Positions 59,115-64,000 of a stretch of 64,000 nt of DNA are shown here, one piece after another; the first letter of the stretch is position 1; each line of letters begins with the position of its first letter. Made by a program: the position numbers and the translations under genes. The notes beneath the pieces were generated by a model that did not search any database, was not told where the DNA came from, and saw nothing but the letters and a program-made list of their open reading frames with translations. Origin of the DNA: Nonomuraea longispora (GTDB lineage: Bacteria; Actinomycetota; Actinomycetes; Streptosporangiales; Streptosporangiaceae); the NCBI RefSeq assembly GCF_004348345.1, contig NZ_SMJZ01000003.1:1-64000 (forward strand). Direction: 5' to 3'.

Positions 59115-59170
59115 GCCTTTCCTTCGCGCGCAGTGCTCCGTACCCATGGGTGCGATCTTCCGAACAACGG

Positions 59171-59186
59171 TGTAATGATGATTACA
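59171..59186. promoter_or_regulatory. Palindromic operator at the RHH-like gene start
   Basis: TGTAATGATGATTACA, perfect 6-bp arms around GATG. It contains the -10-like TAATGA and ends on the first base of the ATG, so binding would block the leaderless promoter. A related sequence TTAATGATGACTGG lies at about 59918-59931 before pckA. Confidence 0.65.
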
Positions 59187-59710
59187 TGGCTAGCGATGAT
59201 GATGTGACGGCACAGATCCACGGCTGGTTCGCGGGGCGGCTGCCCGGTGACTGGTTCACCGGCGCGCCCGAGATCGTCAGGGACCGCGAGGAGATCGCGG
59301 TGCTCGGCCGGCTGCCCGAGCCGCCGGCCGACGTTCCCGAGGCCGAGCGGTCCGCCTTGATCGACGGGCTGGCCCGCCGCTTCAGGGAGGAGACGCGCGA
59401 GCGCCGGATCGAGATCGCCAAGGAGGCCGAGCGCAAGTTCCGCCAGAAGGTCTCCTGGGGCGTTGTCTGCGGCGGCGATACTGTGATGTTCACCACACTC
59501 TCCGTGCCCGTGATGACCCGGCTGCGCCAGTCGGAGCGCCGCGTGCTCGACACGCTGGTGGCCGCGGGCGTGGCCAGGAGTCGCAGCGACGCGCTCGCCT
59601 GGTGCGTACGCCTGGTCGGCAAGAACGCCGACACGTGGCTCGGCGATCTGAGGGAGGCGCTCCAGCACGTCGACCGAGTTCGCTCCGAAGGGCCCGACGT
59701 AAATTCCTAG
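59186..59710 (+). CDS. Ribbon-helix-helix-like protein
   Basis: 174 residues. The first 80 are acidic and helical. The C-terminal part VMFTTLSVPVMTRLRQSERRVLDTLVAAGVARSRSDALAWCVRLVGKNADTWLGDL has the strand-helix-helix pattern of RHH DNA-binding domains (VxxRLxxxERxxLDxLVxxGVxxSRSDAL). No Shine-Dalgarno site lies before ATG 59186; the start is probably leaderless and sits in a palindrome, suggesting autoregulation. Not a typical antitoxin, since no toxin gene is adjacent. Confidence 0.6.
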   Translation: MASDDDVTAQIHGWFAGRLPGDWFTGAPEIVRDREEIAVLGRLPEPPADVPEAERSALIDGLARRFREETRERRIEIAKEAERKFRQKVSWGVVCGGDTVMFTTLSVPVMTRLRQSERRVLDTLVAAGVARSRSDALAWCVRLVGKNADTWLGDLREALQHVDRVRSEGPDVNS

Positions 59711-59958: not shown

Positions 59959-61752
59959 GTGTCCGTTTCCGTGGAAGTGCCCGCACCGACCAGCAATAGG
60001 GAATTGGCCGAGTGGGTAAAGGAGATCGCTGCTCTGACCCAGCCCGACCGGATCGAGTGGTGCGACGGGTCAGAGGAGGAGTGGACGCGCCTCACGAACC
60101 TTCTCGTCGAGCAGGGGACGTTCACGCGCCTGGCCGCCAGGCCCAACAGTTTCTACGCCAAGTCCGACCCGAGTGACGTGGCGAGAGTCGAGGACCGCAC
60201 GTTCATCTGCTCGGAGCGCGAGGAGGACGCCGGGCCCACCAACAACTGGATTGCGCCCGGCGAGATGCGCGAGACGTTCGGCGAGCTGTTCAAGGGCTGC
60301 ATGCGCGGCCGCACGATGTACGTGGTGCCCTTCTGCATGGGCCCGCTGGGCGGGGAGATCTCCCAGCTCGGTGTCGAGATCACCGACTCCGCGTACGTCG
60401 CCGTGTCCATGCGCGTCATGACCCGCATGGGCGACAGGGCGCTGCGGCTCATCGAGGAACGGGGCTCGTTCGTCAGGGCCGTGCACTCCGTGGGCGCGCC
60501 GCTGGAGCCCGGCCAGGAGGACGTGCCGTGGCCGTGCAGCTCCACCAAGTACATCAGCCACTTCCCCGAGACCCGCGAGATCTGGTCCTACGGCTCCGGC
60601 TACGGCGGCAACGCCCTGCTCGGCAAGAAGTGTTACGCGTTGCGCATCGCCAGCGCCATGGCCCGCGACGAGGGCTGGCTGGCCGAGCACATGCTCATTC
60701 TCAAACTGACGCCACCCTCGGGTGAGGCGCGCTACATCGCCGCCGCCTTCCCGAGCGCCTGCGGCAAGACCAACCTCGCCATGCTCCAGCCCACGATCCC
60801 CGGCTGGAAGGTCGAGACCATCGGCGACGACATCGCCTGGATGCGCTTCGGCGAGGACGGCCGCCTCTACGCCATCAACCCGGAGGCCGGCTTCTTCGGC
60901 GTCGCGCCCGGCACCGGCGAGGTGACCAACGCCAACGCGGTCAGGACTCTCTGGGGCAACAGCATCTTCACCAACGTCGCGCTCACCGACGACGGCGACG
61001 TGTGGTGGGAGGGGCTTACCGAGGAGCCCCCCGCTCACCTGACCGACTGGAAGGGCCGCTCGTGGACGCCTGCCAGCGACGAGCCCGCCGCCCACCCGAA
61101 CGCGCGCTTCACCACCCCCGCGTCCCAGTGCCCGATCATCGCGCCCGAGTGGCAGGACCCCAAGGGCGTGCCCATCTCGGCGATCTTGTTCGGTGGCCGC
61201 CGCGCCACCGCCGTTCCTCTGGTGACGGAGTCGCTGAGCTGGGAGCACGGCGTCTTTCTCGGAGCCAACGTCGCCTCCGAGAAGACCGCCGCCGCCGAGG
61301 GCAAGGTCGGCGAGCTGCGCCACGACCCGTTCGCCATGCTGCCGTTCTGCGGCTACAACATGGGAGACTACTTCGGCCACTGGCTGGACATCGGGCGCCG
61401 CGAGGGTGCCGTGCTGCCCCGGATCTACTACGTCAACTGGTTCCGCAAGAACGCCGGCGGCAGATTCATCTGGCCCGGCTTCGGCGAGAACAGCCGCGTG
61501 CTCAAGTGGATCGTCGACCGGCTCAACGGCGAGGCCAAGGCGGTGCCGACACCGATCGGCCTGCTGCCCGCCGACCTCGACACCGAGGGCCTCGACCTGT
61601 CCGAGGAGGACCTGCAGACGCTGCTGAGCGTCGACCGCGAGGTGTGGCGCGAGGAGGCCGCGCTGATCCCGGCCCACTTCGAGACGTTCGGCTCCCACCT
61701 GCCGAAGGAGCTGTGGGACGAGTACAACGCCCTGCTCGACCGCCTCAGCTGA
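59959..61752 (+). CDS. pckA: Phosphoenolpyruvate carboxykinase (GTP)
   Basis: 597 residues, normal for the GTP-dependent enzyme. [16 protein letters not shown] is the P-loop with the mobile-loop Cys, [12 protein letters not shown] the metal site, and [30 protein letters not shown] and [28 protein letters not shown] are family signatures. It converts oxaloacetate and GTP to PEP and starts gluconeogenesis. GGAGGAG nine to ten bases before GTG 59959 fixes the start. Three GntR/DasR-like boxes lie 170-220 bases upstream, suggesting control by amino-sugar or carbon status. Confidence 0.97.
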
Positions 61753-61824: not shown

Positions 61825-62766
61825 GTGGACTTCGTACTGATCATTGCCTCGATCGCCATCGTGGCCCTGGTCGGCGTGGTGGAGCAGCGCGCCGAACGCG
61901 AGCGCGTGAGGGTCAGCGGGGCCAAACCCGCCAGAGCCGGCCACCAGTTGGGCCCTTACGAGCTGGCCTACCTGTCGGGCGGGCCGCGCCGGGCGCTCAA
62001 CACGGCGCTGGCCGTGCTCGCCTCGGCCGGGGCCATCCGTGTCTCGCGGGGCTCGCGGGTCACCGCCGTGCACGGCGCCTCGCCCTCGCCGGTGCCGCTT
62101 GAGCAGGCGGTGCTCGACGCGACGGCGGCGCGGCCGGGCGGCTACCAGGCGAGCGAGCTGCGCCGCGAGCTGGAGTCGCATCCCGCGCTCGCCGAGCTCG
62201 CCGCCGAGCTGGAGCGCAAGGGGCTGATCGTGCCGCAGTCGGCGTTCGAGAAGGCCCGGCGGCTCTGTGACCGGCTGCGGTTCGTGGTGGCCGGCGCGGC
62301 GGGCTACCTGGTGCTGCTGATCGTGCTGGCCGTCATGGGCGTGGCCGGTGAGGAGACGGTGTACGTGGGGGCGGTGTTCTTCGCGTTGTTCGCCCTCGTC
62401 ACCAGCCTCATCGCGCTCTACCGGCAGCGGCGCAGGCTGCGCAACGTCGTCACCCGCGAGGGCCGCGAGGTGCTGCGGTCGGCCCACGCGTACCATCCGA
62501 GGGGCGTACGTGATCCGCGCTCGCTCTCCGCGGCCGTGGCGATCCCCGTCGCGCTGTACGGGCTGACGGAGTCGGGGGACCGGCTGCTCTGCGACGAGCT
62601 GTCCGTCGGCGTACCCGGGGGTGACTGCGCCGGCGCCTGCGGCAGCTTCAGCGGCTCCGGCACCACCTTCGGCAGCGATTCCTTCGGCGGCATGGACCCC
62701 GGTGGTGGGTCGTCGAGCTGCGGCGGCGGATCGGGCTGCGGCGGTGGTGGCGGAGGAGGAGGTTGA
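61825..62766 (+). CDS. TIGR04222-type membrane protein with Cys/Gly-rich tail
   Basis: 313 residues. An N-terminal helix (residues 2-20), a soluble part beginning with [32 protein letters not shown] (the TIGR04222 pattern), two further helices (about 150-200) and a C-terminal tail that is almost only Gly, Ser and Cys. Cysteines lie at 256, 268, 272, 299 and 305, giving CAGAC and CGGGSGC motifs before a terminal octaglycine. This tail resembles a RiPP-like core joined to a membrane protein. GTG 61825 is preceded by GGGGGAGG. The polyglycine codons also form the ribosome binding site of the MNIO gene, whose ATG lies one base after this stop. Confidence 0.8.
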
Positions 62767-62767
62767 C

Positions 62768-63583
62768 ATGGCCGGGCTGGGAGTGGGCATCGGCTGGCGG
62801 AGCGAGCTCGACCTGACCATCGAGCGGATGGACGGCGTCGACTTCCTCGAAGTGGTCGCCGAGAACATCAGGCCGGCCCAGCTGCCCGAGTCGTTACGGG
62901 TGCTGCGCGGACGCGGCCTGCCGGTGATCCCGCACGGGGTGTCGCTCGGGGTAGGCGACGCGCAGCCGCCATCGCCCGCCCGGCTCGCCCATCTGGCGGC
63001 CTGCGCGCAGGCTCTCGACGCGCCGCTGGTCAGCGAGCATCTGGCGTTCGTACGCGGGGGCGGCGTCGAGGCCGGGCACCTGCTGCCCGTGCCGCGCACC
63101 CGCGAGTCGCTGCGGGTGGTCACCGAGAACGTGCGGCGGGCCCAGGACGCCCTGCCCGTGCCGCTGGCCCTGGAGAACGTCGCCGCCATCTTCGGCTGGC
63201 CGGACGACGAGCTGACCGAGGCGGAGTTCCTCGCGGAGCTGGTCGCGGCGACCGGCGTCGGGCTGCTCATCGACGTCGCCAACCTCTACAACAACCAGGT
63301 CAACCTGGGCCTGTCGGCCGTGGCGGCGCTCGACGCGCTCCCGCTGGAGCACCTCGCGTACGTCCACGTGGCCGGCGGCTACGAGCGCGACGGGATCTGG
63401 CACGACACGCACACCCAGGTCGCGCCGCAGCCGGTGCTCGACCTGCTGACCGAGTTGTGCGCCCGTGCCACGCCGCCCGGCGTGCTGCTGGAGTGGGACG
63501 AGGACTACCCGAGTGACGACGTCCTCGTGACCGAGCTGTCCAGGATCAGGGCGGCCATGTCCTTGGCGGGGGAGCCGCGGTGA
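62768..63583 (+). CDS. DUF692/MNIO-family multinuclear iron oxygenase
   Basis: 271 residues, a TIM-barrel of the UPF0276/DUF692 family. Candidate iron ligands are all present: VAEN (Glu32), PHGVSL (His56), SEHLAF (His91), EAGHLLPVP (His104), ALENVAA (Glu136), [11 protein letters not shown] (Asp169, Asn172), VHVAGG (His200), HDTHTQV (Asp213, His215) and LEWDEDYP (Glu242, Asp244). Characterised members oxidise cysteines or other residues in ribosomal peptides, as in methanobactin and bufferin pathways. GGAGGAGG overlaps the preceding gene. Codon 43 is TTA (62894). The partner gene overlaps the stop by GTGA. Its likely substrate is the Cys tail of the previous protein. Confidence 0.88.
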
Positions 63584-64000
63584 GCGGCACGACCCTCCCT
63601 GGCGGCGAGGCAGCGGTGCCGGACGCGGAGGTGCGGCGGCGGCTGGCGGAGGCGCAGGGGAGGGTCGTGGCGGCGCTCGTCATGGGTGCGGAGCCGCCTG
63701 AGGGCTTCGACCCCGAGCGCATGCGGGTGCAGGCGGTGAGCCTGCTGGCCAAGCGGCGCGGCATCGTGGCGAGGCTCCGTCCCGACGCTGCCGCCGCCGC
63801 GGGCCCCGACCTGGCCTCCGAGTACGCCGCCTACGCCCGTTCCCGCACCACGCCGCCGCCCGGCTACCGCGCGGACGCCGACGACTTCGCCGACTGGTTG
63901 CGCGCCCGTGGCCGCATGCCCGCCCCGCGCGGGAAGGTCCGCTGGTGGTCGCGTCTCCTGTCCCGGGATCCGGGTCGGTCACGAGCGGACGGATGGCCGG
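63580..64000 (+). CDS. MNIO partner protein, cut by the window end
   Basis: At least 140 residues, open to the last base, with no stop seen. GTG 63580 overlaps the MNIO stop (GTGA). The sequence begins [20 protein letters not shown] and continues with helices ([40 protein letters not shown]) and [15 protein letters not shown] enzymes usually need a helical partner that binds the substrate leader; position and coupling suggest that role. I recall streptomycete DUF692 proteins (SCO6045 type) with a C-terminal extension that may correspond to this protein as a fusion, but could not check it. Confidence 0.7.

Follow-up and report, generated by a model that had tools for sequence, protein, structure and literature searches.

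Can an MNIO iron enzyme take the tail of an integral membrane protein as its substrate? The question is raised by the end of a 64,000-nucleotide stretch of Nonomuraea longispora DNA (contig NZ_SMJZ01000003.1, positions 1 to 64,000; the whole stretch is called the window here), where a gene for a TIGR04222 membrane protein is followed by genes for an MNIO and for a small helical partner. This TIGR04222-MNIO-partner cassette had been noticed by a model working from the letters alone (the sequence-only reading), and the observation is confirmed here. From the sequences we consider it probable, though well short of certain, that the three genes form a protein-tail modification system in which the MNIO acts on the TIGR04222 tail. 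The tail is a supported candidate substrate because the gene order is conserved, the tail cysteines stand in a small-residue context and the partner is DUF2063-like; against the tail as substrate, as that reading had it, stand Streptomyces-type loci that lack a Cys tail, and the idea itself had already been proposed. Antoine et al. 2025 (PMC12452194), in the available part of their paper, put TIGR04222 proteins, together with PME-type 2 partners, forward as putative substrates of MNIOs and suggest that the MNIO might modify the TIGR04222 C-terminal segment. The locus is a well-formed example of this published TIGR04222-MNIO kind, sharing with those clusters the same three families and a membrane protein that lacks a signal peptide and has a Ser/Gly/Cys end. 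With respect to the available parts of the paper, three points are refinements: the context of the residue after each tail Cys (Cys+1), the presence of a partner gene at nearly every sampled TIGR04222-MNIO locus of this order, and the cytosolic tail favoured below.

Conservation of the three-gene unit

The three genes lie on the forward strand and are as tightly coupled as had been claimed: a gap of 1 base separates the stop of the TIGR04222 gene (61825..62766) from the MNIO gene (62768..63583), and the partner gene, starting with GTG at 63580, shares 4 bases with the end of the MNIO gene, its stop included. The gene order is conserved in relatives. The Gly-coding end of the tail can also be read as a ribosome site of GGAGG type in front of the MNIO gene. 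The overlapping helical partner described earlier is borne out by the full gene (63580..64005, 141 amino acids), of which 63580..64000 lies in the window and the last 5 bases fall beyond its end at 64,000.

A search for TIGR04222 and DUF692 together across actinobacterial genomes, suggested by the sequence-only reading, gave the association it anticipated. In a phylum sample of 396 genomes, an MNIO was present in 25 of the 26 genomes with a TIGR04222 match above the cut-off compared to 5 of the 370 others (Fisher p 1.4e-33, which is not an independent-sample value because the genomes are related). Of 297 genomes within the order, 214 have TIGR04222 and 149 have an MNIO, with 139 of them having both. 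The co-occurrence is not due to chance, and the absence of an MNIO from any one genome rests on an assembly that may be incomplete. The loci of the order were taken from the best-scoring matches listed, beyond which more exist (120 of 129 drawn up), and a further 30 came from 34 weaker-scoring genomes that were chosen by hand.

Of 192 distinct sampled TIGR04222 genes, 132 have a same-strand MNIO gene within 2.5 kb downstream, in some cases with a second TIGR04222 gene in between. Nearly all of these loci (131/132) also encode a partner homologue, whereas many of the MNIO-bearing clusters of Antoine et al. seem to be partner-less, a PME-type 2 gene being reported in at least 10% of TIGR04222 clusters in the part of the paper available. 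When 80 loci were instead retrieved through their MNIO, 75 contained TIGR04222 and 78 the partner; four of the five loci without TIGR04222 start less than 200 bases from the MNIO, the fifth being L292 (see below), and the sequence of both loci without a partner (L271, L273) ends soon after the MNIO. The MNIO and partner share one reading frame in 7 of these 80 loci. Such fusions were also observed in Mycolicibacterium/Mycobacterium (L332, L336, L337), with a Cys-tailed TIGR04222 gene upstream in L336 and L337. The window's genome yielded a single TIGR04222 match, and elsewhere in Nonomuraea, Planotetraspora and Rhizohabitans we observed tandem TIGR04222 genes with differing Cys tails ahead of a single MNIO (L263-L267, L322, L323, L325, L327, L328).

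Cysteine context of the tail

The TIGR04222 protein of the window (GTG start, 313 amino acids; 125.3 bits against the NCBIfam TIGR04222 model, cut-off 43) has a C-terminal tail at residues 251-313 (62575..62763), which is of low confidence, and by that measure disordered, from about residue 272 in the AlphaFold2 (AF2) model. The protein carries cysteines 148, 256, 268, 272, 299 and 305. The four listed for the tail by the sequence-only reading (268, 272, 299 and 305) are all correct; it left unmentioned Cys256, which also belongs to the tail region, and Cys148, at the start of the second membrane helix.

Two or more Cys lie within 40 residues of the C terminus in 129 of the 132 MNIO-near proteins, which come from 22 genera (8 of the 192 TIGR04222 rows, having no stop within the locus, were dropped before the tails were counted). 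The residue after the cysteine is Gly, Ala or Ser in all 529 scored MNIO-near tail Cys, compared to 79% in shuffled tails, and Gly alone accounts for 485 of them (92%), compared to 55% after shuffling each tail. Among 102 Cys in the bodies of the same proteins only 9% are followed by Gly. The spacing of the cysteines is variable, the twelve commonest spacings running from 2 to 13; the retained CxxxC/CxxxxxC patterns that had been expected are therefore not conserved, and what is conserved is the Cys-Gly unit. This context comes close to the requirement of the characterised enzyme FonBC, for which, according to the available part of PMC13097082, only Ala could replace Gly after Cys and Pro was not tolerated.

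The MNIO and its partner

The 271-residue enzyme belongs to the MNIO superfamily by its match to PF05114 (261.7 bits, gathering cut-off 25) and by its conserved iron-site residues. Its top-scoring models are BufB and HvfB, and its 187.8 bits against the BufB-type maturase model NF050167 lie below the equivalog cut-off of 310, so it is not assigned to that type. The earlier statement that all expected ligands are in place agrees with our alignments: H56, H91, E136, D169, H200, D213, H215 and E242, which we take to be the iron ligands, align with those of the solved TglH and are at least 97% conserved across 101 aligned MNIOs, the window MNIO included. The closest relatives in GTDB genomes are from Nonomuraea, with 94% identity to the N. 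deserti protein.

By profile comparison (E 3e-5) the partner resembles DUF2063 proteins, but it lacks an RRE. A Pfam scan of the partner gave no match, and the Pfam model DUF2063 (PF09836) matched 2 of 33 aligned partners with a best E of 0.083; the NCBIfam models gave no match to the partner either, and its AF2 model contains no RRE-sized C-terminal domain. Having neither the Pfam match nor the RRE domain, the partner falls outside the DUF2063 (PF09836)/PME-type 1 class; encoded after the MNIO, with a DUF2063-like helical domain and no Pfam match, it belongs to PME-type 2. The DUF2063 alignment (A5) held 12 proteins, 2 of them Pfam-scanned, and the relatives used in the structure runs numbered 51 (of 70) for the partner and 66 (of 93) for TIGR04222.

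Among characterized pathways, the bufferins and captophorins (BufABC, FonABC) share with the unit a BufB/HvfB-scoring MNIO, the small-residue Cys context and a DUF2063-related partner. As far as the available parts of those reports go, the BufABC/FonABC precursors have Sec signal peptides whereas the candidate substrate here is an integral membrane protein, and their partner consists of DUF2063 plus an RRE whereas the one here is the helical part only. The window MNIO also aligns with TglH of the pearlin pathway (TglHI; E 1.4e-24), yet the target of TglH, in the available text, is a Cys that has been attached to the C terminus of a scaffold peptide, and the tail of the window protein has several Cys, all within the chain. 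With methanobactin MbnBC the MNIO family and the iron-site residues are shared, but the match is weak (TIGR04159, 39.5 bits, cut-off 325), and no NCBIfam model recognizes the partner here.

Membrane topology and a possible product

The three-helix membrane protein described earlier is supported by hydrophobicity, charge and the AF2 model. Helix 1 (61828..61917), which AF2 models as a single helix over residues 2-31 and whose hydrophobic part is about residues 1-19 (Kyte-Doolittle hydropathy, KD, 2.74), reads as a membrane anchor. It is followed by a soluble domain at residues 44-131 (61954..62217), predicted to be cytosolic, with helices plus a strand pair in the AF2 model, blocks of predicted local distance difference test (pLDDT) values above 90 and positive flanks, and then by a membrane hairpin (62236..62442) made up of helix 2 (residues 138-171, KD 2.66) and helix 3 (residues 177-206, KD 2.37). 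Over 135 alignment rows of MNIO-near proteins the mean number of Lys/Arg is about 4.7 after helix 1, 3.7 before helix 2 and 6.2 after helix 3, compared to 0.4 in the loop that joins helix 2 to helix 3 and none in the first three residues. By the positive-inside rule, this charge pattern and three helices would place the tail in the cytosol, the side on which an MNIO lacking an export signal would be expected. As a separate observation, the model of residues 41-269 (61945-62631) is weakly like GOLPH3/GPP34 and the sequence weakly like DUF2207_C, so that the protein is possibly a GPP34-like fold holding a membrane hairpin.

The published view differs, since the topology prediction of Antoine et al., in the part available, puts the tail in the periplasm. 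A modified tail could face outside, like the exported bufferins, if a weak fourth membrane segment after helix 3 crossed the membrane. Such a segment is present at residues 233-247, moderately hydrophobic, and reaches a KD of at least 1.6 in 29 of 128 relatives; its KD is 1.12 in the window protein (median 1.36 in the relatives) compared to 2.2-2.4 for the clear helices 1-3, AF2 gives it a helix of just 12 residues (234-245), and the distribution of positive charge described above runs against a crossing. We regard an outside-facing tail as rather unlikely, and sequence and model features together favour the cytosol as the probable side.

If the MNIO does act on the tail, it and the RRE-less DUF2063-like partner would oxidise several tail Cys, mostly in Cys-Gly units, and the oxidised cysteines would most likely become rings of the thiooxazole type known from bufferins and from fontiphorin, for which a loss of about 4 Da per modified Cys and UV absorption near 302 nm are reported (PMC13097082). 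After modification the tail would remain attached to the membrane and, probably facing the cytosol, bind a soft metal; a metal-binding role of the tail is suggested by analogy only. The sequences themselves show the three genes with their conserved order, the context of the tail Cys, the relationship of the partner and the pattern of hydrophobicity and charge; we infer the tail as substrate, the chemistry, the membrane side and the metal. Tentatively, several metal-binding heterocycles installed by the MNIO on a cytosolic tail may amount to a permanently membrane-anchored, cytosol-facing metallophore of actinomycetes, a protein and not a secreted peptide, which would sit across the membrane from bufferins; this is possible but doubtful. 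If true, MNIO chemistry would reach membrane proteins, beyond small secreted peptides, and a chemical function would be given to the TIGR04222 tails that are common in this actinomycete order.

Loci and results that do not fit

Several observations weigh against modification of the tail by the MNIO, and two other explanations draw on them. Ser, which is not among the residues listed as accepted by FonBC, follows about 6% of the tail Cys. A tree was drawn for 105 TIGR04222 domains, taken from 60 or 61 of the MNIO-near rows (132 in all) and from the other rows whose domain has at least 150 residues. The presence of an MNIO changes only about twice on it, so that the correlation between Cys tail and MNIO is near to one event and lends little independent support. 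The tail could be a product of drift in composition, with Cys that are incidental to a low-complexity, Gly-rich end and a link to the MNIO through shared descent only. In genomes without an MNIO, 2 of 23 TIGR04222 proteins have at least two tail Cys, and six of the eight Gly/Ser-rich tails there have no Cys at all, as drift would allow. The retention of tail Cys across 22 genera and a Cys+1 bias that exceeds composition argue otherwise, and drift seems to us very unlikely.

The most direct exceptions come from the phylum sample. The sequence-only reading had named TIGR04222 homologues next to DUF692 without tail cysteines as evidence that would count against it, and in part this evidence was found: 10 loci (L243-L248, L252-L255) have an MNIO-partner fusion followed by a TIGR04222 gene without a Gly/Cys tail. 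The genus concerned (g64) is presumably Streptomyces, because the S. violascens locus L340 looks alike. In five of the ten a Cys-free gene lies between the fusion and TIGR04222 (the one scanned, from L246, is a DUF4142 gene), and the TIGR04222-like genes elsewhere in four such genomes (L343-L346) have one Cys each in their last 60 residues. The MNIO pairs of the ten loci, without a visible Cys substrate, must have another target or none at all. Within the same genus, no TIGR04222 gene was seen beside the fusion of two MNIO-bearing genomes (G319, G478), and five other loci (G400, G581, G615, G619, G687) have Cys-rich tails beside it, two of them together with a tail-less copy. In Kitasatospora L334 and L338 one TIGR04222 copy has a Cys tail and the other is almost free of Cys.

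Other loci separate enzyme and tail more completely. Nonomuraea sp. NEAU-A123 (L292) has MNIO and partner with no TIGR04222 gene in the 5 kb upstream; G289 (L352) keeps both, with TIGR04222 found neither in the genome nor at the locus. G238 (L261), of the same genus as the window, has a short Cys-tailed TIGR04222 gene without MNIO or partner; since this gene still adjoins an apparent pckG (recognised by eye) and no MNIO was found, it reads as a recent loss. Among MNIO-bearing genomes, 29 TIGR04222 proteins are not encoded within 2.5 kb upstream of an MNIO, and 21 of these are Cys-tailed. In the available part of PMC12452194, more than 1/4 of TIGR04222 proteins lack a C-proximal Cys and 1/3 of TIGR04222 genomes lack an MNIO. 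The Streptomyces-type loci, L292 and L352 mean either that something besides the tail keeps the enzymes in place there, or that the substrate has been lost in those lineages.

The same loci would be expected if the Cys/Gly tail served unmodified as a metal ligand or in redox reactions while MNIO and partner act on another substrate: enzymes persist without a Cys tail (Streptomyces-type loci) or without TIGR04222 (L292, L352), and Cys tails persist away from an MNIO and in G238. Gene order speaks against this, as does the finding of no other Cys-rich gene within the window's three-gene unit; the small-residue rule at Cys+1 fits MNIO chemistry, and G238 may be that recent loss. We judge an unmodified tail unlikely. 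Finally, the best structural match of the partner model, a chain taken as TglI, has a Z score in the range usual for unrelated folds, and Foldseek returned no significant match. A literature search, mostly outside subscription journals, found no experiment on any TIGR04222 protein.

Neighbouring genes and a second cluster type

Upstream of the unit lies pckG (59959-61752), a gene for a GTP-type phosphoenolpyruvate carboxykinase, and downstream are genes for undecaprenyl diphosphate synthase and for a PhoH-family protein; the genes seen adjoining the unit gave no metal-related hint. Between an NlpC/P60 gene and pckG, positions 59150-59710 hold a 186-amino-acid reading frame without a Pfam match. 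In the same order we also observed a second type of MNIO cluster (L034-L052), in which a Cys-rich protein gene is followed by an MNIO gene and then by one for a DUF2063-type protein, with one more gene after it in many cases. The Cys-rich protein has mostly 8-10 Cys and, where seen, an LHVCMGLNAC-like motif, and by eye these clusters resemble the adjamnio-I group of Antoine et al.
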